Shown here: positions 3,855 through 36,418 of the stretch, in pieces
How positions within the stretch are numbered: the stretch's first letter is position 1
How the letters are laid out: each line of letters opens with the position of its first letter
Assembly: GCA_003164925.1 (NCBI GenBank)
Contig: PLRV01000095.1
Coordinates: 1-36,418 of the forward strand
Direction: 5' to 3'
Length of the DNA: 36,418 bases
Source of the DNA: Caulobacteraceae bacterium
Lineage (GTDB): Bacteria > Pseudomonadota > Alphaproteobacteria > Caulobacterales > Caulobacteraceae
Program-made: the position numbers and the translations under genes
Notes under the pieces: model-generated
The model's database searches: none
The model's input: only the letters and a program-made list of their open reading frames with translations
What the model was told of the DNA's origin: nothing

Positions 3855-4646
3855 CTAGCCGCCCAAAAGCGCGCGCGTTGCCGCAGCCACGTCGGCCTGA
3901 CGCATCAGACTTTCGCCCACCAGCATGGCTGAGGCGCCGCAGGCCTCCAGACGGGCCGCGTCGGCGGGGGTGAAGATGCCGCTCTCCGTTACCAACAAAG
4001 CATTTGCGGGCTTGAGCGCGGCCAGCCGTTCGGTGATCGCGAGGTCCACCTCGAAGGTGCGCAGGTCGCGGTTGTTGACCCCGGCCATGTCGGCGCCCAG
4101 AACGGCCGCGCGCTCCATTTCCGCTTCGTCGTGGGTCTCCACCAGCACGTCCATGCCGAATCGGCGCGCTTCGCTCATGAGGTCCGCCGCCAGCGAGTCG
4201 TCGATCATCGCCAGGATCACGAGGATGCAGTCGGCGCCCAGCGCGCGCGATTCGGCCACTTGCCAGGGATCGATCAGAAAGTCCTTGCGGATGCAGGGCA
4301 GGTCGCTGGCCTCCCTGGCGGCCGTCAGATAGGCGTCCGCGCCCTGAAAGCTTGGTCCATCGGTCAGGACAGACAGGCAGGCCGCGCCGCCGGCCCGATA
4401 GGCGCGGGCCAGGGCGGGCGGATCGAAATCCGCGCGGATCAGCCCGCGTGAAGGACTGGCCTTCTTGATTTCGGCGATCAGGCCCAGGCGGCCGGGCGCA
4501 TGGGCGCGGGTCAAGGCCTGGCGAAAGCCGCGCGGCGCGCTGGCCTGCAGGGCGGCCTGCTCGATCTGCGCGAACGAGCGCGCCGCCTTGCGGGCGGCGA
4601 CTTCCTCGCTCTTGTAGGCGGCGATGCTATCCAGAATATCGCTCAT
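3855..4646 (-). CDS. trpC: Indole-3-glycerol phosphate synthase
   Basis: Closes the ring of carboxyphenylamino-deoxyribulose phosphate to give indole-3-glycerol phosphate, the fourth step from chorismate to tryptophan. It has 263 residues, the usual length of a monofunctional TrpC, with a TIM-barrel fold. Signature blocks are [11 protein letters not shown] (catalytic lysine), [24 protein letters not shown] and LLVTESGIF. Its ATG overlaps the trpD stop by one base (TGATG at 4648-4644), which points to translational coupling in the trpG-trpD-trpC operon. No TrpF domain is fused to it and trpF is not in the window. Confidence 0.97.
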
Positions 4647-5659
4647 CAGCCGTTGCTCGCTTGAACCAGGCGTTCAAGAGCGGCCTTGGCCCGTCCATCG
4701 TCGATGACCCGTCCGGCCAGCGCGACCCCGTCCCGCAAGGTCTCGACCTTGTCCGATACAAGCAGGGCGGCGGCCGTGTTCAGCAGCACCACATCGCGAT
4801 AGGGACCCGCGGCGCCATCCAGCAGATCGCGGATGGCCTGGGCGTTGAACCCGGGATCCCCGCCTAGAAGGTCCGCCAAGGATGCCTGGGGCAGGCCCAC
4901 GGCTTCGGGCGTGACCGTGAACAGGCGCACGGCCCCGTCTTTCCATTCCGCGACGTGGGTTGAACCGGTGGTGGTCATCTCATCCAGGCCTTGACCGTGC
5001 ACCACCCAGGCGCGCTGCGAACCCAGCGCGCCCAGGACGCGGGCCAGCGGCTCGACCCACCGGCTGTCATACACACCCAGCACCTGGCGCTGGGCGCCGG
5101 CCGGATTGGCCAGCGGGCCGAGCAGGTTGAAGATGGTGCGAAAGCCCAATTCCTGGCGGATGGGCGAGACATGGCGAAGGGCCCCGTGATGCGCGGGGGC
5201 GAACAGGAAGCAGATGCCGGCCTCGTCCAGGGCGCGCCGGCTCTGCTCCAGGCTGGCTGAGATATTCACCCCGAGCGCGGCCAGGACGTCTGCGGCGCCG
5301 GACTTGGAGGACATCGCCCGGTTGCCGTGCTTGGCCACCTTGATCCCCGCGCCCGCGGCCACCAGGGCCGAAGCGGTGGAGATGTTCAAGGTGTGCAGGC
5401 CGTCGCCGCCGGTGCCGCAGGTATCGATCACCTGATAGGGGTGCTCCAGCCGCGTGGCGGCCCGCCGCATGGCGCGGGCCGAGGCGGTGATCTCGCCCAC
5501 CGTCTCGCCGCGCAGGCGCATGGCGGTGATGGCGGCGGCGACCTGGGCCGGGGAGGGCTCTCCGCGCAGACAGGCCGCGAAGAAGTCGTCCGCGTCGGCC
5601 TCGGTCAGGGTCGCGCCATCCGCCAGGCGGGCCAGCAGGGGTTTGAAGGCGTCGGACAC
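4646..5659 (-). CDS. trpD: Anthranilate phosphoribosyltransferase
   Basis: Transfers phosphoribosyl from PRPP to anthranilate in tryptophan synthesis. It has 337 residues from GTG 5659 (start [14 protein letters not shown]), matching the family length of about 340. The PRPP-binding glycine loop [14 protein letters not shown] and the block [17 protein letters not shown] are both present. The frame stays open far upstream (to 6100), but that extension is the shadow of trpG in another frame; only the GTG start gives a family-like N-terminus, and it lies 2 nt after the trpG stop. Middle gene of the trpG-trpD-trpC operon. Confidence 0.96.
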
Positions 5660-5661
5660 GG

Positions 5662-6258
5662 TCAGGCCGAGGTTGCCGCGAGGCGCCTCACCCCGGCCAG
5701 GTCGAGGAAGTTGGCGAGCAGTTCGTGGCCGTGTTCGGTGGCGATGGATTCGGGGTGAAACTGCACGCCATGCACCGGTCGGTCGCGCCGCCTCAGGCCC
5801 ATGATCTCGCCATCGCCGCTCCAGGCCGTGATCTCCAGCACGTCCGGCAGGCTTTCGCGCTCCACCGCCAGGCTGTGATAACGCGTGGCCGTAAACGGGC
5901 TGGGCAGACCGGCGAACACGCCCTGGCCGGAATGCTCGATCTGGTCGGTCTTGCCATGCATCAGGGCCTTGGCGCGGACCACCTTGCCGCCGGCGGCTTG
6001 GCCTATCGCCTGATGTCCCAGACACACGCCTAGGATCGGCAGGTCCGCGGGCGCGCGCAGGAGTAGGTCCAAACAGATGCCGGCCTCGTCGGGCGTGCAC
6101 GGCCCGGGCGACAGAAGCACCGCTTCGGGCACCAGCGCGAGCGCCTGCTCTACGCTCATGGCGTCGTTGCGATGCACAAGGGTCTCTGCCCCAAGCTCGT
6201 TCAGGTAGTGGACGAGGTTGTAGGTGAAGCTGTCGTAATTATCGATCACCAGGATCAT
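5662..6258 (-). CDS. trpG: Anthranilate synthase component II (glutamine amidotransferase)
   Basis: Supplies ammonia from glutamine to TrpE for anthranilate formation from chorismate. It has 198 residues from ATG 6258 ([14 protein letters not shown]). The class I amidotransferase triad is visible: C79 in GVCLGHQ, and H168 and E170 in [12 protein letters not shown]. The frame is open to 6414, but the conserved start is at 6258, with GAAAGG about 10 nt upstream. It may also serve as PabA for folate synthesis, as in some bacteria; that is not decidable here. It is first in the operon; its partner gene trpE lies 2.3 kb away in a different transcription unit. Confidence 0.96.
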
Positions 6259-6413
6259 GCGGGCGCGCCTTTCAGTCGGGTTCTTAGGCTCGCGCGCCGC
6301 GAAGGCCAAGAGCCGTGAGCCGAAGCTGAAGAATTGACCGGCGCCGCGCCCCGTCTTGGCGCCACATTCGATCGTCATCTGGCGCGGCCGATCCGCTGAG
6401 CTAAACTCGTCCA

Positions 6414-6605
6414 ATGCAGATCGAGTCGCCCGCGCCTCTCGCCTTAGCCCGCGCCAAGCTGGTCGCGCCGTCCCGGCCGGACCGCCCCCTGGCGGCGGTT
6501 TGCGCAGCGGCTCTTTTCGCGGTTTGCGCCTTGACCTTCGCCGCCGCGGCGATCTTCGCGCCGCCGGTGGTGATCGAGCCGATGGCTAAGCCGGGCGTGC
6601 AGTAG
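6414..6605 (+). CDS. Small single-pass membrane protein, unknown function
   Basis: A 63-residue reading frame, divergent from trpG across 155 bp. After a polar N-terminus ([15 protein letters not shown]) it has one long alanine-rich hydrophobic segment, about residues 26-52, followed by a short tail ending in KPGVQ. I recognise no family. A GCTAAACT sequence at 6400-6407 is a partial match to the Caulobacter -10 box and would start transcription almost at the ATG, so a leaderless mRNA is possible; no ribosome binding site is visible. It could also be non-coding, since open frames of this size arise easily in GC-rich DNA. Confidence 0.45.
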
Positions 6606-6640
6606 CGACCCCGCATTGGGTGTCAGATCGTTTTGATTTT

Positions 6641-6665
6641 GCCCGACGGCGTAATAACGTCGGGC
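6641..6665. repeat. Perfect 8-bp hairpin upstream of the histidine kinase
   Basis: GCCCGACG (6641-6648) and CGTCGGGC (6658-6665) are exact reverse complements around a 9-nt AT-rich loop. There is no T-run after it on either strand in the right direction, so it is not a canonical intrinsic terminator. It ends 10 nt before the GTG of the kinase gene and could be a 5' leader structure or an operator. Confidence 0.5.
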
Positions 6666-6675
6666 TCGGTATAGC

Positions 6676-8571
6676 GTGCAGGATATCCCGCCGGTGGCTT
6701 CTCCCAGGGATTCGAATCTTCACCGACCACCAGGGCAGCAAATGGCCCTGTTCGCCGGCGCCTTTCTGATCCTGTTCGCCGTAGTCACCACATGGTTGGT
6801 CATCAACAGCGCCGGCCGGGTGCGGTGGGTGGAGCATACGCTCGAGGTGGAGCGGGAGATTTCCGAGGCCCAGGCCACCCTTTACGCCGCGGAATCCGCC
6901 GCGCGCGGTTATATTTCCACCGGCAATCCGGGGCTTCTCTCTAACCCCGTGGGAGCCGATCGCGCTCTTTGGGTCAAGCTGGGAGAAATTTCGTCGCTCA
7001 CCTCCGACAATCCCCGGCAAAGCGCCGCGCTGAGAGGCGTCGAACAGAGCGCCGCCGCACGCCTGGCCATGCTCGCTCGCGCCGTGGCCCTCAAGCGTGC
7101 GGGATCGGACGCCGCGGCTCAGAAACAGCTGACCGACCCGCTCGGCATCCGTCAGGAAAATCTGTTCCGTGAGGCCACGGACGGAATGCGCGCCGAGGAG
7201 AACCGGCTTTACGTGGTCCGGCTGAAGCAGGCGGAGGATTCGCGGCGCGCCTTGCTGGTTCTGTCGACCCTGACCGGGGTGGCGACCTTGGCTTTCACCT
7301 TGGCCTGGATAAGCAACGCCTGGCGCTCCACCCAAGCGCTGCAGGCGGCTTATGCCGAACTGATGAGCGCCAATACCCAGCTCAAGACCGAGATCGAGGG
7401 GCGGGCCGTGGCGGAGGGGCAAATCCGCCAACTGCAGAAGATGGAAGCGATCGGCCAGCTCACCGGGGGCATTGCCCACGACTTCAACAACATGCTGGCG
7501 GTCATCATTGGCAATCTGAACCTTATGCAACGCAAGTTGGCTAGCGGGCGGAGCGACATCGAGCCCTATGCCGCCGCCGCCCTGGAAGGCGCGGCCCGCG
7601 CCGCGGCCCTCACAGCGCGACTGCTGGCCTTTTCGCGTCAACAGCCGCTCGCGCCCCAGCCGGTGGACGTGAACAAACGCATGGTGCGCCAGTCGGAGAT
7701 TCTGCGCAGGCTGCTGGGCGAAACGATCATGATCGAGACGGTGCAGGGCGCCGGAATTTGGCGCGCCGAGGTCGATCCCGTTGAGTTGGAAAGCGCGATC
7801 CTCAACCTGGCCGTCAACGCGCGCGACGCCATGGGCGGCGAAGGCAAGCTCACTATAGAAACGGCCAACGCCCATTTGGATGAAGCCTACGCCCGGGCCA
7901 ACGGCGTGGCGGCCGGACAATATGTGATGATCGCCGTAACGGACACTGGCTCGGGTATGACGCCGGACGTGGTGGATCGCGCCTTCGATCCCTTTTTCAC
8001 CACCAAGCCGGCCGGCCAGGGCACCGGGCTGGGGTTGAGTCAGGTTTATGGCTTCGTCAGGCAAACCCACGGCCACGTCAAAATCTATTCAGAGCCAAAC
8101 CACGGCTCCACGGTGAAGATATATCTGCCTCGCCTGGTGGCGGAACACGCCGCGGAGTCGGAGGAGAGCAAACCGGTTCCCGCGCGCCTGGTCGGCAAGC
8201 CTGAGGAGATCGTGATGGTGGTGGAGGACGAGGATCGAGTTCGCCAGTTCGCCGTCGAGGCTTTGCGCGAGCTGGGCTACACCGTGCTGCACGCCCATAG
8301 CGCCCGCGCCGCCCTCGATAAGCTGCAAGCCGAACCGGGCATTTCCCTGCTGCTGACCGATATCGTCATGCCGGAAAAGAACGGCCGTCAACTGGCCGAT
8401 GAAGCCTTACAGATCATCCCCAACCTGCCGGTGCTCTACATGACCGGCTTTTCGCGAAACGCGGTGGTGAACAACGGCATGTTGGACTCTGGGGTGAACT
8501 TCCTGCCCAAGCCCTTCACCCTCGACCAGCTCGGCGCGAAGGTGCGCGAGGTGCTGGACGCGGCGGCCTAG
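6676..8571 (+). CDS. Hybrid sensor histidine kinase with CHASE3 domain and receiver
   Basis: Membrane-bound two-component sensor of 631 residues (GTG 6676; ATG 6742, which starts at MALFAGAF just before the first membrane segment, is an alternative). Order: TM1 about 25-45; CHASE3-like periplasmic sensor about 46-190 ([18 protein letters not shown]); TM2 about 192-212; a short coiled linker; HisKA-type dimerisation domain with [11 protein letters not shown] (phospho-acceptor H268); ATPase domain with [16 protein letters not shown] and GTGLGLS; and a C-terminal receiver with phospho-acceptor D562 (LLLTDIVMP) and K612. No response regulator gene is adjacent, so it is an orphan hybrid kinase. 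The signal is unknown; the trp neighbours do not by themselves imply a link. It converges on trpE with a 15-bp gap. Confidence 0.93.
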
Positions 8572-8586
8572 CGAAAAAAACGCCCG

Positions 8587-10131
8587 TCAGTCGAAGCGCC
8601 AGGCCTCTTGCGCCGCTCGGCGCTGGGCGCCGGATTTGTGCAGGGTCTCGTCGTATTCGGCGCTGGGATCGGAATCCGCCACCACCCCGCCGCCGGCCTG
8701 GGCATAGATCATCCCGTCCTTGAACAGCGCCGAGCGCAGGATGATGCAGGTGTCGATCTGGCCGTCGGCCGAGATGTATCCGGCCGCCCCGCCATAGACG
8801 ACACCGCGCTTGACGCTCTCCAGCTCGTCGATGATCTGCATGGCGCGCACCTTGGGCGCGCCCGACAGGGTGCCTGCGGGCAGGGCCGCCATCAGCACGT
8901 CCACCGGGTCCAGGCCTTCGGGCGCATCGCCTTCCACATTGGAGACGATGTGCATCACATGGCTGTAGCGCTCCACCGTGAAACTTTGGGTGACGCGCAC
9001 GTGCGGCGCGCTCTGGGCCTGGGCGGGGGTGTTGCGGCCTGGTTCGCGCAACATGGCCACGCGGCCCACGTCGTTGCGGCCCAGGTCCAGCAGCATCAGA
9101 TGCTCGGCCCGCTCCTTGGGATCGGCCAGCAGCTCCCGCTCCAGCGCCTGATCCTCGGCGGGGGTCTTGCCGCGCGGGCGGGTGCCGGCGATCGGCCGGA
9201 TGGTGATCTTCCCGTCGCGCAGCCGCACCATGATTTCGGGGCTCGAACCGGCGAGCTGGAAGTCGCCGAAGTTCAGATAGAACATGAAGGGCGAAGGATT
9301 GAGCCGCCGCAGGGACCGATAGAACGCGAACGGGTCCAGGGCGAAGGGCGCGCTGAACCGATGGCTCGGCACCACCTGGAAGATGTCGCCGGCGCGGATG
9401 TATCCCTTGGCTTTCTCGACGATCCCCGCGTAGTCGGCCCGGCTGACCTGGGATTCCAGCGGCTGCTGGGGCTTGGGCTTGCGCTCGGGGCCGATGTGCA
9501 GGGGTTTGCGCAGGTCCGCCACGGTGTCGCCTAGGCGCGTGCGGGCGGCCGCGTAGGCCTGGGCCGCCGTGATCGGGCCGGGGCGAACCGGCGTTGTCAG
9601 CACGATCTCCTGTCCGATGGAATCGAACACCGCCACCACCGAAGGGCGGGTCATGACGGCGTCGGGCAGGCCGAGCGGATCGGGATTGACGTTCGGCAGG
9701 GGCTCGACCAGCCGCACCATGTCGTAGCCCACCGCGCCGAACACGCCGGCCGCCATAGGCGGAAGCTCAGCGGGCATATTGATGCGTGAGCGCGCCACCA
9801 GGCTGCGCAGGGAATCCAGCGCGCCTTCGCTTTCGGGCGTGAAGTCGCCCGTGTCCAGGTCGTCGCCCTGGCTGACCTCGGCCTTGTCGCCGAAACAGCG
9901 CCAGATCAGGTCCGGCTTCATGGCGAGGATCGAGTAGCGGCCGCGCCAGGCGCCGCCTTCCACCGATTCGAACAGGAAGGCGTAGGGCTGGCCTTGGGCA
10001 AGCTTCAGATAGGCGGACACCGGGGTTTCCAGGTCGTCGACCAGGCGCAGAAACACCGCCTGCGGCTGGCCAGCCTCGTAGGTCGCCGCGAAAGTCGTAA
10101 AGTCGGGCTGGACCTCGGCGTTCTGGCTCAT
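8587..10131 (-). CDS. trpE: Anthranilate synthase component I
   Basis: Converts chorismate to anthranilate using ammonia from TrpG. It has 514 residues. The N-terminal half holds the regulatory region (LFESVEGGAWRGRYS, equivalent to the LLES feedback site, so tryptophan inhibition is likely). The C-terminal chorismate-binding domain shows PIAGTRPRGKTPAEDQ, LLADPKERAEHLMLLDLGRND, GTLSGAPKVRAMQIIDELE and QAGGGVVADSDPSAEYDETL. Its ATG overlaps the stop of the upstream chaperone gene in an ATGA arrangement (10131-10128), so the two are translationally coupled. No leader peptide with clustered Trp codons was found upstream. Confidence 0.97.
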   Translation of the reverse strand: MSQNAEVQPDFTTFAATYEAGQPQAVFLRLVDDLETPVSAYLKLAQGQPYAFLFESVEGGAWRGRYSILAMKPDLIWRCFGDKAEVSQGDDLDTGDFTPESEGALDSLRSLVARSRINMPAELPPMAAGVFGAVGYDMVRLVEPLPNVNPDPLGLPDAVMTRPSVVAVFDSIGQEIVLTTPVRPGPITAAQAYAAARTRLGDTVADLRKPLHIGPERKPKPQQPLESQVSRADYAGIVEKAKGYIRAGDIFQVVPSHRFSAPFALDPFAFYRSLRRLNPSPFMFYLNFGDFQLAGSSPEIMVRLRDGKITIRPIAGTRPRGKTPAEDQALERELLADPKERAEHLMLLDLGRNDVGRVAMLREPGRNTPAQAQSAPHVRVTQSFTVERYSHVMHIVSNVEGDAPEGLDPVDVLMAALPAGTLSGAPKVRAMQIIDELESVKRGVVYGGAAGYISADGQIDTCIILRSALFKDGMIYAQAGGGVVADSDPSAEYDETLHKSGAQRRAAQEAWRFD

Positions 10132-13600: not shown

Positions 13601-15241
<1,641 letters not shown>

Positions 15242-15260
15242 GGGGCGATCGCGAGCAGGG

Positions 15261-15295
15261 CGTCGCACGCGGAGCCTTTACGGGCTCAAGCGACG
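15261..15295 (+). terminator. Two-stem hairpin downstream of pyrG, possible terminator
   Basis: CGTCGC (15261-15266) pairs with GCGACG (15290-15295), and inside it GAGCC (15272-15276) pairs with GGCTC (15283-15287) around a six-base loop. It begins 20 nt after the pyrG stop. There is no U-tract after it, so intrinsic termination would be weak; the position is the main argument. Confidence 0.45.
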
Positions 15296-15394
15296 ATCCG
15301 TGCGTCACGAAGCCCACGAAGATCATCCACGGCGCGATACTTGGAGCCGCGGTCATACCGCTCGTTCCGGTGGACCTCGCGCTCAAGGCCAAGG

Positions 15395-15428
15395 TTGACT
15401 AAAAAGTCATTTATGACTATATCGTCAT
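15395..15428 (+). promoter_or_regulatory. Promoter with overlapping TGACT/AGTCA palindromes (candidate operator array)
   Basis: TTGACT (15395-15400) and TATATC (15418-15423) are separated by exactly 17 nt. ACTATATC (15416-15423) also matches six of seven defined positions of the Caulobacter -10 consensus GCTANAWC. Two palindromes overlap and share one half-site: TGACT-AAAA-AGTCA (15396-15409) and AGTCAT-TT-ATGACT (15405-15418). A further GTCAT is at 15424-15428. Any protein bound there would cover the -35, spacer and -10. The predicted transcript starts about 27 nt before the ATG of the fusion gene. No regulator gene is adjacent, so the binding protein is unknown. Confidence 0.65.
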
Positions 15429-15457
15429 CCACGGTATGGCTTTGGATGATTTGCGCA

Positions 15458-17680
15458 ATGCCTGAGGAGCATGACGTCGTTGTAGCCGGGTGCGGTCCCG
15501 TTGGGCTGTGCATCGCGCTGCTTCTGGCGCGCCAGGGGCATAGGGTCGCCGTCGTCGAGCGCCACCTGGCCATCTATGCCTTGCCCCGCGCCATCGCCTT
15601 CGACCACGAGATCGCCCGCATCCTCCATGGGCTCGGTTTAATGGAGCCGATGAAGCCGCACCTCGCCGCGCCAGGCAAATATCAGTGGCGTAACGCGAAC
15701 GGCGAGACCCTGTTCGTGATCGACTGGAGCGAAGACGCCGTCAGCGGATTCCGGAATTCCTATTTCTTCAGTCAGCCGAAACTTGAGCAGGTGATGAACG
15801 CCGCCGCCCAGGCGAATCCGCTCATCACCATCCATCGCGGCTATGAAATGATCGGCTTCCGGCAGGACGAAGAGGGCGTTTCGCTCACGGCCCGCAGGGT
15901 TGCCGCAAGCGATAGCGAGTTGACCCTGTGCGGGCGCTATCTGATCGGCGCCGACGGCGCCAACAGCGGCGTGCGCGCCGGCATGGGAGCAAAGCTCACC
16001 GACCTCGGGTTCGAGGCCGACTGGCTGGTGGTCGACGTCCTGCCGCTCCCCGGCGAACGCCTGCCGTTCGACGACGACCTTGCGATCCAGATCTGCGATC
16101 CCGCGCGACCCACGACGATGATTTCGGGCGGCCCCGGGCGCCGTCGCTGGGAGTTCATGGCGCTCGAAGGCGAGACGCTCGCCGACCTCAATTCCGATGA
16201 GCGCGCTTGGGAATTGCTCCGACCGTTCGGCCTGACGCCGCAAAACGCCCTTCTCGAGCGCCATGCGATCTACACATTCCGTGGCGCCGTCGCGGACCGC
16301 TGGCGGCAGGGACGAGTATTTATTGCCGGGGACGCCGCCCACCTGACCCCGCCCTTTGCGGGACAGGGCCTGTGCGCCGGATTTCGCGACGCCGCGGCGC
16401 TGGCCTGGCGCCTGGATCTCGCGCTTCGGGGGCTGGCGAGCGAAGCCATGCTGGCAAGCTATGGCGCCGAGCGTACAGAACATGCCCGCGCCTGGATCAT
16501 GAATGCGATCGACCTCGGTGAGGTGATCTGCGTCCTCGATCCAGCGGTCGCAGCCGAGCGCGACGCTCGCATGCTCGCAGCGCGCGCGGCCGGTGCGACG
16601 CCGCCTTCGTCGCTCATTCTGCCTCGGCTCGGGCCAGGCATGAGCCTGCCGGATCAGGCGGGCGGCGCGCTGGGTCATGGCGGCGCGCTGCTCAAGGAGG
16701 GGCGGCGGGCGCACATCGACGATTTGCTGGGCGGCGGCTTCCAGCTCATCTCCCGGCTCGGCGATCCCGCCTCGACCTTATCGCCGGCCGCCTATTCGCT
16801 TTTCGCCGCGCTCCATGGCGTCAGCGTTGACCTCAGTCCCAGCAGTGCGATCCGCGACATCGACGGCGTCTACACCCGCTGGTTCGACAAACTGGACGCC
16901 GACACCGTATTGCTACGACCTGACTTCTACCTGTTCGGCGCCGCCACAGGGAAAGCCGGGGCCGAGGCGCTGATGCAGGCTTTTCAATCGTTTGTGACCG
17001 TATCGCGTACCCCTGACCCATCACACAATGAGGCAAATCCTATGTCCGTAACCGAAGAAGGCCATCGTGACGCGTTACTGGCTAAGCCGGGCGTCCGGCC
17101 CTCAAGTCTGGCTCATGTCGTCCTGCGCACCACCCGATACGAAGCCATGCGCGACTTCTATCTGCAGCTGCTTAACGGACGTGTGACGCATGAGAACGGG
17201 ACGGTCTGCTTCATGACCTATGACGAGGAGCATCACCGTGTCGTCGTGATCGACATGCCGCATCTTGCGCCGGTGCAACCGAAGGCCAGCGGCCTGGAGC
17301 ACTACTCCTTCACCTACGCTTCGATGGGTGAATTGCTGGGCAACTATGCGCGCCTCAAAGCGGCGGGCATCCTGCCGGTTTGGACGATCAACCACGGTTT
17401 CACCACGTCGATCTACTATCGCGATCCGGACGGCAACATGATCGAGACGCAGTTCGACAACATGACGAGCGAGGAGGCGAATGCGTTCATGCACGGCCGC
17501 TATTTCGCCCAAAACCCCATCGGCGTGGATTTCGACCCGGAAGTCCTCTTGGCGCGATACCGAGCGGGCGATCCGCTGGACGCGCTCATCCAGTTCCGCT
17601 CGGCGCCCTATGCCGACGGCGTGGAGCATATCCGTCCCGCCTCGGTGGGCTCCTATGACGGCGAAGGCGCTCTTCTCTAG
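15458..17680 (+). CDS. Fusion: FAD aromatic hydroxylase (MhpA-like) and type I extradiol dioxygenase (VOC)
   Basis: A 740-residue protein predicted to hydroxylate a phenolic compound and then cleave the resulting catechol ring. Residues 1 to about 525 are a class A flavin monooxygenase: GCGPVG at 11-16, the DG motif GADGANSGVR near 164, the GD motif IAGDAAHLTPP (D292), and a C-terminal thioredoxin-like region (LLRPDFYLFGAA). From residue 529 a single-module extradiol dioxygenase follows, with likely Fe(II) ligands H553 (LAHVVL), H615 (LEHYSF) and E663 (GNMIETQFDN); it resembles one-domain 2,3-dihydroxybiphenyl dioxygenases. I start at ATG 15458 (MPEEHDVVVAG), although the frame is open from 15341. 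ATG 17042 at the junction is preceded by GAGG, as if a separate gene once began there. No ring-cleavage hydrolase or regulator gene is nearby. The substrate is unknown. Confidence 0.9.
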   Translation: MPEEHDVVVAGCGPVGLCIALLLARQGHRVAVVERHLAIYALPRAIAFDHEIARILHGLGLMEPMKPHLAAPGKYQWRNANGETLFVIDWSEDAVSGFRNSYFFSQPKLEQVMNAAAQANPLITIHRGYEMIGFRQDEEGVSLTARRVAASDSELTLCGRYLIGADGANSGVRAGMGAKLTDLGFEADWLVVDVLPLPGERLPFDDDLAIQICDPARPTTMISGGPGRRRWEFMALEGETLADLNSDERAWELLRPFGLTPQNALLERHAIYTFRGAVADRWRQGRVFIAGDAAHLTPPFAGQGLCAGFRDAAALAWRLDLALRGLASEAMLASYGAERTEHARAWIMNAIDLGEVICVLDPAVAAERDARMLAARAAGATPPSSLILPRLGPGMSLPDQAGGALGHGGALLKEGRRAHIDDLLGGGFQLISRLGDPASTLSPAAYSLFAALHGVSVDLSPSSAIRDIDGVYTRWFDKLDADTVLLRPDFYLFGAATGKAGAEALMQAFQSFVTVSRTPDPSHNEANPMSVTEEGHRDALLAKPGVRPSSLAHVVLRTTRYEAMRDFYLQLLNGRVTHENGTVCFMTYDEEHHRVVVIDMPHLAPVQPKASGLEHYSFTYASMGELLGNYARLKAAGILPVWTINHGFTTSIYYRDPDGNMIETQFDNMTSEEANAFMHGRYFAQNPIGVDFDPEVLLARYRAGDPLDALIQFRSAPYADGVEHIRPASVGSYDGEGALL

Positions 17681-17686
17681 GGTGGC

Positions 17687-17748
17687 GATTCAGAAATCCG
17701 CCTGCGGCTTGTGGAGAGCGCGGAGCGAATTTCTAAATCTCAAGCCGC
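17687..17748. repeat. Interlocked inverted repeats downstream of the fusion gene
   Basis: A 15-bp arm (17687-17701) and its inverted copy (17725-17739) match at 13 of 15 positions. A second pair, GCGGCTTG (17704-17711) and CAAGCCGC (17741-17748), is exact and crosses the first, so an RNA copy could fold as alternative hairpins or a pseudoknot. It starts 7 bp after the fusion-gene stop codon. It may be a terminator region or the remnant of a small repeat element. Confidence 0.45.
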
Positions 17749-17803
17749 ACTAGAAATGTATGATTCCAGTGTGCTGGATATGGCGGACGAGCGGTGACGG
17801 TGA

Positions 17804-18403
17804 ATGACCAACCTCGATATCCGCGCGTGTTTTCTCGGCGACAGCTTCACCTTCGGCCAGGGCGATGACACCGGCCTAGGCTGGGTTGGGCGGGTGCTGG
17901 CGGCCGAGCGTGGCCGGGGCGTGGAGCTCACGGCCTACAACCTCGGTATTCGCGGCCAGACCGGCGCGCAGATCGCCGAGCGGGCCAGCGCAGAAGTCTC
18001 TACCCGGTTGACCGATCGGGGCGACCGTCGCGGGGTGGTGATCTGCTTTGGGGCCAATGACATTTACCTGGGCCGGCCACAGGCGGAATCGGTTCTGGCC
18101 ATGGCCGGTCTGCTGCGCTGGACGCAAGGGGAGGGCCACACGGCCTTCGTGGTGGCCGCCCCGCCCATGGCGGAGCCCTTGCTGGATGCCAAGCGCGCGG
18201 CGTTGAAGGACTCTCTAGCGCAGGTCTGCCGTGACTTTGCCGCGCCGATACTGGACCTGCCCGGCGCCGTGGCCGATTGGTCGGCCTGGCATGCGGAAGC
18301 GGCGGCCGGCGACGGGGCGCATCCCAACGCCGAGGGCTATCGCCGCGTGGCCGAGGCGTTCGGGCGTTGGGCCGAGTGGCGTGAGTGGATCGAAAAGGAC
18401 TGA
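17804..18403 (+). CDS. GDSL-family (SGNH) hydrolase
   Basis: Small esterase/lipase-fold enzyme of 199 residues. The SGNH blocks are visible: block I FLGDSFTFG with nucleophile S14, a glycine in NLGIRGQTG (block II), GAND with N85 (block III), and DGAHPNAEGY with the D170-x2-H173 pair (block V). There is no signal peptide, so it probably acts in the cytoplasm; the substrate is unknown. A GGTGA stretch lies just before the ATG. The last base of its stop codon is the first base of an inverted-repeat element (18403-18538). It lies between the aromatic fusion gene and rpmF, with no visible functional link to either. Confidence 0.88.
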   Translation: MTNLDIRACFLGDSFTFGQGDDTGLGWVGRVLAAERGRGVELTAYNLGIRGQTGAQIAERASAEVSTRLTDRGDRRGVVICFGANDIYLGRPQAESVLAMAGLLRWTQGEGHTAFVVAAPPMAEPLLDAKRAALKDSLAQVCRDFAAPILDLPGAVADWSAWHAEAAAGDGAHPNAEGYRRVAEAFGRWAEWREWIEKD

Positions 18404-33523: not shown

Positions 33524-35059
33524 TCACCCCTCCGCCTCGGCGATCCTCTGCACCGCGCCGTAGTCGGTCTTGCCGCTGCCCAGGAGGATCGGGGCCGCGA
33601 CTTGGACGATCTTGCGCGGGACGGCGATATCCGCGGCGCCATAGGCCTTGGCGTGGGCGAGCAGGGCTTGGACGTCCACCGGCGAGCCCTCGATCACCAG
33701 CACCAGACGCTCGCCCTTGCGCTTATCCGGGGCGGCCACCACCGCGCACCAGCGGTCGGGCCAGACGGCGGCGGCCAGGTCCTCCACCGCCGACAGGGAG
33801 ATCATCTCTCCGCCGATCTTGGCGAAGCGTTTGGCCCGGCCCAGGATGCGCACCAGACCCGTGTCGTCGATGGACACGATATCGCCGGTGTCGTGCCAAC
33901 CGCCCGGCGGGCGCTCCAGCACGCCGGAATCGTCGTTCATATAGCCGGCCATGATATTGGGCCCGCGCACGTGCAGGCGTCCGCCGGCTGTCAGGCCGTC
34001 CACCGGCTCCAGCCGCGCCTCCACGCCGGGCAACAGGCGCCCCACCGTGCCGGGATGGTTGTCGTGAGGATTGTTCACGGCGATCACCGGGCCCGCTTCG
34101 GTGGCCCCATAGCCCTCGATCACCGGTCGGCCGGCGATGGCCGCAAAGGCCCGGTGTGTCTCCTCGCGCACCTTCTCGGCGCCGCAGGCGGCGAACTTCA
34201 GCCCCATGAAGTCCTCACGCGGCGCCGCGCGCAGATATTGGCCCAGGAAGGTATCGGTGGCCAGGAGCACGCTGGCCCCGCTCTCGCGCACGAGGCCAGG
34301 GATGATTTTGATATGCAGCGGAGAGGGATATTCGAAAGCCTTCAGGCCGTTCAGGATGGGCGTCAGCACCCCGCCCGTCAGGCCGAAGGAGTGAAATACG
34401 GGCAGGGGATTGAAGAACACCCAGTCCGGATCGAGCTCGATGTGCTCGGCGATCTGTTTGGCGTTGGCCACCAGATTGCCCTGGCTCAGCACCACCCCGC
34501 GCGGGGCGGCGAAACTGCCTGACGTGAACAGGATGGCGCCCGGGTCGCTCGGCTTCACCGCCTTGCTAAAGCGCCGAGGCCGCATCTCGGCGGCGAAGGC
34601 GTACAGTCGGTCCAGGAGTCCGATCTGTCGGCGAATATCCTCCAGGTAGACGATGCGCGCGAGGTCCCCCAGCTCCCCGATCAGCTCCTCGAGCTGGGCC
34701 TGGGCGATGAAGCGGCGCGAGGACAGGATGGTCTTGACGCCCGCTGTCTGGACCGCGCCCTTCAGGTTGCGCGGACCGGCGGTAAAATTGAGCATGGCCG
34801 GGATACGGCCAAAGGCCTGCAAGGCGAAAAAGGTCACGACCACACCGGCGCTGGTGGGCAGGAACACGCCCACATGCTCGACCGGCTTGGTCATGCCGGC
34901 GATGCGACGGCCCAGGGCGAAGCTGGCGCGGATCAGGTCGCGGTAGGATAGCGGCTTGCGCTCCTGATCCTCCAGGATCAGGCGGGTCGGGCCAAAGCGT
35001 TCGCTGGCCTCGATCAGGGCGTCGAACACCGCCCCGTGCGTCCCAGGCCCATTCGCCAC
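33524..35059 (-). CDS. AMP-forming acyl-CoA/acyl-ACP synthetase (Aas C-terminal-like)
   Basis: 511 residues from GTG 35059. It belongs to the ANL adenylate-forming family. Blocks NPLPVFHSFGLTGGVLTPILNGLK and EYPSPLHIKIIPGLV are those of the acyl-ACP synthetase half of Aas; GYGATEAGPVIAVN (A5), GWHDTGDIV (A7), GRAKRFAKIGGEMISL (A8) and LGSGKTDY with the late catalytic lysine (A10) are intact. The P-loop (A3), normally TSGSEGxPKG, reads T179-S-G-S-F-A-A-P-R-G188. There is no acyltransferase domain, so it likely activates a free fatty acid. It lies 37 bp downstream of the lipoprotein gene on the same strand. Confidence 0.87.
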   Translation of the reverse strand: MANGPGTHGAVFDALIEASERFGPTRLILEDQERKPLSYRDLIRASFALGRRIAGMTKPVEHVGVFLPTSAGVVVTFFALQAFGRIPAMLNFTAGPRNLKGAVQTAGVKTILSSRRFIAQAQLEELIGELGDLARIVYLEDIRRQIGLLDRLYAFAAEMRPRRFSKAVKPSDPGAILFTSGSFAAPRGVVLSQGNLVANAKQIAEHIELDPDWVFFNPLPVFHSFGLTGGVLTPILNGLKAFEYPSPLHIKIIPGLVRESGASVLLATDTFLGQYLRAAPREDFMGLKFAACGAEKVREETHRAFAAIAGRPVIEGYGATEAGPVIAVNNPHDNHPGTVGRLLPGVEARLEPVDGLTAGGRLHVRGPNIMAGYMNDDSGVLERPPGGWHDTGDIVSIDDTGLVRILGRAKRFAKIGGEMISLSAVEDLAAAVWPDRWCAVVAAPDKRKGERLVLVIEGSPVDVQALLAHAKAYGAADIAVPRKIVQVAAPILLGSGKTDYGAVQRIAEAEG

Positions 35060-35096: not shown

Positions 35097-36068
35097 TCAG
35101 CGAACCGGAGATCGAGTGAGATCGATAAATGCGGCCAGGGTCCGCGTCCAGGCTGCTGAGGTCCGATCGCCTACTGGGTTCGCGGGAGCGGGGGGCGAAA
35201 GGCTGCAACGCGCCAGCCGGGCGCAGAGGGCGCGCTCATCCGCCGAGGGCGCGGGTCCGGCGGGCAGGATCAGGACCGGGGTTCTGATGGCGCCGAGGTT
35301 TTGGCCTTTGATGGCTGCGGTCTGCGCATCGAAGGCGGCGATATAGCCGAAGCTCGGGCCGCCGATGCGCAGCTCGGGGTTGGCCGTCTGCCAGGCCAGG
35401 GCAAGGCCGGCGCGGCCCGGTTCGCGCGCGCTCCAGGGACTCTGGCCCAGGGCCCGAAGCCAGCCCAGATGCGCCATCTGGACGAAGGGCGCCGCCGATT
35501 CCACGTCGTAGATGTCCGGTCCCGCGAAAGGCGGCGAGAGGACCGGCGCCGACAGCACCGCCCCTTGCGCCGGGAGACCCTGGCGCAGGGCCTCGATCAG
35601 CACCGGCGCGGCCTGGCCCTGGGCGAGCAGCACGGCCGGCCTGTGGTCCATCACCGCGACCATGGCCTTGAGCGCTTGCACATCAAGCTGAAAGTCCGGC
35701 GCATGGCCCACGTCGCGGCCCAGCCCCCCATAGCGCCCCGAGCCGCCCTGGCCGGCCAGATCCAGCGTCCACACGCTGTAGCCGCGGTCGATCAGGGCCT
35801 GGGCCGGCGCGAACCAGGCCTCGGCCGGCTCGCCGTAGTCGGGCAGGATCATCACCTGCCCGCGCGGGACCACCGGCGGCGCGCCCACGCCATAGCGCAG
35901 GGCGGGCCCGTCGCCCAGCTTGATCAGGCCCCACGCCCAGCCCTCCGGCGGCCAGGCCTGAATCGGCAATCCGGCCGGGATTCGGCTGGCGGTGAAGGGC
36001 GCCTGCGCGGCCGGATCGCTGCAGGCGCACAGGCAGACCGCACAGAGCAGGGCGAGCAGGGGACGCAT
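35097..36068 (-). CDS. Lipoprotein with alpha/beta-hydrolase fold, catalytic residues apparently lost
   Basis: 323 residues from ATG 36068. A lipoprotein signal ([16 protein letters not shown]) has a lipobox ending at C16. The body resembles PldB-type serine aminopeptidase/lysophospholipases: [15 protein letters not shown] (oxyanion region), [17 protein letters not shown], and a strand-turn-helix at [15 protein letters not shown] where the family has HSMGG. The nucleophile position is G151, and neither the acid ([15 protein letters not shown]) nor the histidine ([12 protein letters not shown]) is recognisable. It may be a non-enzymatic lipid-binding lipoprotein. The frame is open to 36269, over the lipA start; the lipobox start is far more likely. 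It probably forms an operon with the ligase gene. Confidence 0.8.
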
Positions 36069-36088
36069 GAAGATCACTGTTTTATGCG

Positions 36089-36112
36089 CACGGGCCTTTG
36101 CGCAAGGCCGTG
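36089..36112. promoter_or_regulatory. Inverted repeat in the lipoprotein-lipA divergent region
   Basis: CACGG(G)CCTT (36089-36098) and AAGGCCGTG (36104-36112) form a nine-pair inverted repeat with one bulged G around TGCGC. It lies in the 94-bp region between two divergent start codons, so it may be an operator or a leader hairpin. No conserved factor site was recognised. Confidence 0.35.
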
Positions 36113-36162
36113 CAACCCACGCAAGGCTTGATCTGCAGCCGCCGAAAGCCGATTTAGGCCCC

Positions 36163-36418
36163 ATGGTCACGGTCATCGACACGGTGGATCGGCGCGCCCT
36201 GCGCCATCCCGAAAAGCAATCGCGCCCCGACAGCCCAGTGCTCAAGAAGCCCGAGTGGCTGAGGGTCAAGGCGCCGGGCTCGGCCGGCTACAGAGCCACC
36301 CAGGCCATCGTGAAGGATCACGGCCTGGCCACGGTGTGCGAGGAGGCCGCGTGCCCCAACATCGGCGAGTGCTGGACCGTGTCGCACGCCACCATGATGA
36401 TCATGGGCGACACCTGCA
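36163..36418 (+). CDS. lipA: Lipoyl synthase, N-terminal part (3' end beyond window)
   Basis: Radical SAM enzyme that inserts two sulfur atoms into octanoyl groups on lipoyl domains. The first 85 residues are present from ATG 36163 ([18 protein letters not shown]). [12 protein letters not shown] and the auxiliary iron-sulfur cluster motif [13 protein letters not shown] (three cysteines) are clear; the radical SAM CxxxCxxC lies beyond the edge. Its products are needed by the lipoyl domains of PdhB and PdhC encoded 10 kb upstream. An accessory block separates it from lpdA. Confidence 0.95.

Follow-up and report, generated by a model that had tools for sequence, protein, structure and literature searches.

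The window, a stretch of 36,418 nucleotides from a Caulobacteraceae bacterium (contig PLRV01000095.1), carries on its forward strand one uninterrupted frame of 740 codons, read as an open reading frame from ATG 15458 to TAG 17680. That the frame is open in this assembly is certain. It couples an MhpA-type FAD hydroxylase to a one-domain extradiol-like dioxygenase of the VOC type, as the sequence-only reading had proposed and as Pfam, NF004829, the sequence motifs and an invariant His-His-Glu site now bear out. The features of the locus are as follows.

15405–15418, + strand: operator-like palindrome AGTCATTTATGACT, 14 bases, between a -35-like TTGACT and a -10-like TATATC with a 17-nt spacer
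15458–17680, + strand: joined frame, FAD hydroxylase plus VOC dioxygenase, 740 aa
15458–17002, + strand: MhpA-type class A FAD hydroxylase part (NF004829), about residues 1–515
17003–17041, + strand: junction SRTPDPSHNEANP, 39 nt, read as a former intergenic gap
17030–17033, + strand: GAGG, ribosome-binding-like, 8 nt before ATG 17042
17042–17680, + strand: one-domain VOC extradiol-like dioxygenase, 212 aa from its own ATG, residues 529–740 of the joined protein

An upstream TTG at 15341 was considered as the start and dropped; ATG 15458 matches the point where the alignments with the hydroxylases of Novosphingobium sp. Fuku2-ISO-50 (L036) and Novosphingobium Rr 2-17 (L037) begin.

Two enzyme parts in one frame

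On the 740-residue protein, Pfam places FAD_binding_3 at residues 5–349 (E = 9.8e-57) and Glyoxalase at residues 551–663 (E = 9.8e-14). The hydroxylase half scores 540.7 bits over residues 3–511 with NF004829, the NCBIfam model for MhpA-type class A FAD hydroxylases (curated cut-off 390), and falls under the cut-offs of the four other PRK06183 models listed. Its translation contains the GxGxxG, DG and GD motifs, as GCGPVG, GADG and GDAAHLTPP respectively. It aligns along its full length with the L036 and L037 hydroxylases, and structures of 2-hydroxybiphenyl 3-monooxygenase match it distantly (E about 1e-20). The host genome encodes four further hydroxylases at 38–42% identity, one of which, on contig C80, has an FAA-hydrolase match about 300 bases away.

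The dioxygenase half is equally intact. Counting residues from the M at 17042, H25, D61, H65, R66, H87, P112, H118, G119, S123, Y125, D128 and E135 are invariant in a 67-row alignment of the window and 66 relatives. Among these, H25, H87 and E135 form the 2-His-1-Glu metal triad (67/67 rows). H118 and Y125 (67/67) align with a His and a Tyr of the catechol 2,3-dioxygenases 5zsz and 5znh and of PDB entry 9u42; they are the second-sphere His and Tyr close to the C-terminal metal ligand, H241 and Y250 in BphC. H65 (67/67) is aligned with a His of 9u42, and its possible equivalence to H195, the catalytic second-sphere His of BphC, is by spacing only. FosA, the best PDB match of a single-sequence query, has Arg at the position of H118, which together with the His/Tyr alignment to catechol 2,3-dioxygenases favours an extradiol-type over a FosA-type enzyme. 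The score with the FosA family NF000221 (31.5 bits) also lies under the curated cut-off of 250. The scores with the named extradiol subfamilies are so far below their cut-offs (catechol_2_3, 25.3 versus 320.2 bits; 23dbph12diox, 16 versus 366.45; HpaD, 14.6 versus 321.4) that the dioxygenase half is not a member of any of these three. A structure model of this half alone has a mean pLDDT of 90.5, and in its fold comparison FosA, glyoxalase and dioxygenase chains tie with equal scores, favouring no single function.

The junction and the search for a second joint

The closest relative found, in Novosphingobium sp. Fuku2-ISO-50 (64% identity in the hydroxylase, 77% in the dioxygenase), resembles the window in gene order, strand and the ends of both proteins, but differs in having two genes. 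There the hydroxylase (4842–6554) ends in a TGA stop and is followed by a 29-nt gap and by a dioxygenase that begins at its own ATG in another frame (6584–7222). Measured from the FVTV codons common to both, the dioxygenase ATG follows after 39 nt in the window and after 50 nt in L036. The difference of 11 nt is not a multiple of three, and the alignment gap falls over the L036 hydroxylase stop. Two TGA triplets of the window junction, at 17014 and 17029, lie outside the joined reading frame. L036 has AGAGAGGA at the position equivalent to the window GAGG, and the window itself retains GAGG and ATG 17042, the signals for a free dioxygenase. In Novosphingobium Rr 2-17 the hydroxylase ends in PQE and a stop and a GST gene comes next; the stretch examined around it gave no VOC match.

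These observations support a model in which the joined frame derives from two genes, whether by a real indel or by an error in the sequence, to which we give a probability of about 0.8. A small indel at the gene boundary, true or artefactual, is the economical account. Only L036 shares the gene order, and one relative of 64% and 77% identity is too little for retracing the exact event. An older fusion may also be compatible with the 11-nt difference, since gap length varies freely.

A sequence or assembly error would mean that the organism has two genes and that the consensus lost or gained one or more bases at the junction, an explanation that overlaps with the two-gene origin. The host genome is a draft of 100 contigs, a TGA in another frame stands directly after a run of four C, and the relatives with a visible gene end have a stop, the in-frame joint being seen once. 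Against this, homopolymer errors usually need more than four identical bases. Pfam matches 21 of the 23 other window proteins scanned, most over nearly the full profile, and relatives of pyrG and eno can be aligned with them throughout, so that local indel errors do not seem common, although this bears on base quality only indirectly. On balance we favour a real joined frame over an error. We consider it probably present in the DNA of the organism, with error a substantial minority alternative.

The search for a second joint covered 43 hydroxylase loci besides the window (E at most 1e-40, after removal of three duplicates) and 65 VOC loci besides the window (E at most 1e-20, duplicates removed). 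They were drawn from searches of 61, 391, 398, 385, 378 and 369 genomes in overlapping samples, from the host's own genome, from named genomes and from plasmids, four records of which were inspected. In the genome searches each group was sampled, no species being represented by more than one genome, and the best matches alone became loci; the 391-genome search, in which two candidates per genome were scored, gave 29 new loci from matches in 89 genomes. Such sampling may have overlooked a rare fusion in other genomes. The other hydroxylases stop at the expected place in 42 of 43 loci, the remaining one (L066) reaching a contig end. Their stops lie 0–30 aa beyond the aligned end, or 141–187 aa beyond it in four that align only up to about residue 360. 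None of the 65 other VOC loci has in-frame room for a hydroxylase, the longest upstream extension of a VOC frame from a start codon being 231 aa (L093) and free of any hydroxylase match. The long open frames of some relatives were accordingly rejected as fusions: their hydroxylases stop near the expected end, and their upstream VOC frames lack a hydroxylase match. In the 391-genome search no other match covers both halves without a stop. Two matches there (G325 and G337) extend past residue 545 but do so across a TGA, and no VOC match lies at L041, the locus of G325. A VOC match lies in the flank of 8 of the 45 hydroxylase loci, window included, and directly downstream of the hydroxylase in the window and L036 only. 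The plasmid-borne hydroxylase of Burkholderia cenocepacia is annotated as a separate gene, none of the 184 plasmid records with a match reaches 80% coverage of the joined protein at a single site, and no relative was found among IMG/VR viral contigs. A literature search at the level of record listings likewise found no fusion of a hydroxylase with a VOC dioxygenase.

How far the joined protein may be regarded as an established bifunctional enzyme, selected to pass an unstable diol from hydroxylase to dioxygenase, can be judged against this background. Both halves are complete, with motifs and invariant active-site residues kept, and the two steps are plausibly consecutive. Co-expression of such genes is known elsewhere: in Pseudomonas azelaica HBP1 hbpCA is activated from one promoter, and HbpA and HbpC, a 2-hydroxybiphenyl hydroxylase and an extradiol dioxygenase, carry out consecutive steps, according to PMC3715732. 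The joined frame is similar in pairing a hydroxylase with an extradiol-like dioxygenase for apparently consecutive steps. By the same paper, however, HbpA and HbpC are two proteins with their own hydrolase, HbpD, in the pathway, whereas the window has one frame. The same joint was seen in no independent relative (0/65 other VOC loci; 0/42 other hydroxylase loci with a visible end), the linker is just 13 residues and resembles a former gap, and the internal start signals are kept. An established, selected enzyme therefore appears improbable. The sequence-only reading had named relatives in which the two are always separate genes as an outcome that would speak against a fusion, and among the relatives found they are separate, L036 alone sharing the gene order. 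What survives of its bifunctional proposal is that two enzyme parts with apparently consecutive steps lie in one frame; an established catechol-channelling fusion is not supported, given the two genes of L036, the lack of a fusion in the other relatives examined and a joint that resembles a former gap.

Genomic setting, substrate and role

The pair sits between pyrG and a GDSL-hydrolase gene. In all three other genomes of the genus (L122, L123 and L124) GDSL-gene sequence follows pyrG and leaves no room for the pair, the GDSL match starting about 571, 5 and 25 nt past the pyrG stop, respectively. In L124 the GDSL gene is matched by two short pieces only, and to judge from this alignment its pyrG-GDSL boundary has changed in other ways too. 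The variable spacer after pyrG in these genomes may mark a site of frequent gain and loss. No match to the VOC half is present at E 1e-5 in the same three genomes, which carry only distant hydroxylases elsewhere (28–32% identity). Either this lineage thus acquired the pair or the other lineages lost it, and acquisition is simpler. No transposon-like repeats were found within 15200–17900. Base composition does not clearly mark the insert, with G+C of 0.60–0.70 per 600 bases; third-position G+C is 0.77, versus 0.85–0.89 for secG, pyrG and eno.

The core of the upstream palindrome, GTCATTWATGAC (12 bases), occurs once in the 3.4-Mb host genome. Among 146 loci, of which L001 and L146 represent the site of the window itself, it is otherwise present only upstream of the L037 hydroxylase, which suggests that gene and putative operator may have moved together in some members of the family. 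Any copy in L036 would need at least three mismatches. Counting against the palindrome, a match with two mismatches allowed arises in 36 of 100 shuffles of the window. Promoter and terminator scans of the consensus type reported nothing, TTGACT-17-TATATC included.

Elsewhere in the window, a CHASE3 hybrid histidine kinase gene (6676–8571) lies between trpE (8587–10131) and trpD/trpC (3855–6100), on the opposite strand to both. In the trpD frame (4649–6100) about 150 residues precede the first Pfam domain; our guess is that its start is probably annotated too far upstream, overlapping trpG. Between 27765 and 36269 lie SDR, GMC-oxidoreductase-like, PhzF-like, TetR, Coq4-like, AMP-binding and S33-hydrolase-like genes, possibly a further catabolic cluster.

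The joined gene had been described as standing alone among housekeeping genes and, on that ground, as perhaps detoxifying. The statement that hydrolase and CoA-ligase genes are lacking needs correcting: the same window encodes an AMP-binding, CoA-ligase-like protein (33524–35059) and an S33-hydrolase-like protein (35097–36269), though 16 kb from the joined frame. The step from isolation to detoxification is weakened. The host genome has 12 FAA-hydrolase matches, one a short fragment, so a downstream hydrolase is available in trans and a detoxifying role does not follow from isolation. In addition, the pair is missing at the same place in the three genomes of the genus, and the surroundings of its relatives resemble catabolic clusters, often with an FAA hydrolase alongside. 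Around the L036 pair are FAA-hydrolase, TonB-receptor, acetoacetate-decarboxylase-like, TetR, BKACE and AraC-type genes. On Sphingobium pTK2 the VOC gene adjoins BKACE, in B. cenocepacia BKACE is nearby, and Rhodococcus pNit carries in a row a VOC gene, an FAA hydrolase, an acetoacetate-CoA ligase and an FAD monooxygenase.

This neighbourhood bears on the substrate. For the dioxygenase half a catechol is a possible substrate. Alternatively it may open a hydroquinone-type, homogentisate-like ring, whose product an FAA hydrolase would then convert to a beta-keto acid, a proposal to which we give slightly less than even odds. In a profile search of PDB sequences it matches best 9u42 (E = 2e-16), an Acinetobacter entry with the title homogentisate 1,2-dioxygenase, in which H25, H65, H87, H118, Y125 and E135 align on the same residues; identity to this VOC-type enzyme is about 20%, and its substrate is given by the entry title only. 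FAA-hydrolase matches flank 36/45 hydroxylase loci and 12/66 VOC loci (flanks mostly 1.5 kb, with no background rate for comparison). The beta-keto-acid enzymes near the relatives (BKACE and the acetoacetate-decarboxylase-like protein in L036, BKACE on pTK2 and in B. cenocepacia, acetoacetate-CoA ligase on pNit) and the GST gene adjoining the L037 hydroxylase point the same way. Yet FAA-fold proteins serve catechol routes too, and BKACE and ligase counts are low in flanks of mostly 1.5 kb (BKACE at 2/66 VOC and 3/45 hydroxylase loci; acetoacetate-CoA ligase at 2/66 VOC loci). The PDB sequence file names 9u42 merely 'Glyoxalase', the single-sequence query that puts FosA first ranks it last of 6, and catechol dioxygenases are also among the matches of this half. 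The tie of FosA, glyoxalases and others in fold score counts against a hydroquinone substrate as well, and the literature search found no paper on such a reading.

Origin and significance of the joined frame

Our results suggest a model for how two neighbouring genes came to be read as one. A two-gene catabolic operon, hydroxylase then ring-cleavage dioxygenase, would have been acquired by transfer between pyrG and the GDSL-hydrolase gene. The short gap between the two may then have undergone a small indel that put the hydroxylase stop out of frame, giving the polypeptide of 740 aa. Its hydroxylase half is predicted to add OH to a phenolic ring via FAD, with NAD(P)H and O2, and its VOC half would next open the dihydroxylated ring with the His-His-Glu metal and O2. 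Cutting of the ring-opened product might fall to an FAA-type hydrolase encoded at another locus of the genome. The dioxygenase probably still starts at ATG 17042 as well, by internal initiation, and fused and free forms may coexist.

Neither coding half shows decay, and the fusion could perhaps be tolerated or useful. It is conceivable, if unlikely, that we see a natural bifunctional enzyme at its birth, in which a deletion in the gap joined an FAD hydroxylase to the VOC dioxygenase that uses its product, yielding a working two-step polypeptide together with free dioxygenase. Should the joint prove a sequence error, the value of the locus would be limited to a little-studied operon. A joined frame that is real and active would show at an early stage how neighbouring pathway genes become one enzyme, a relative still having the two-gene state, and would offer a ready test of whether such joining helps with an unstable intermediate.
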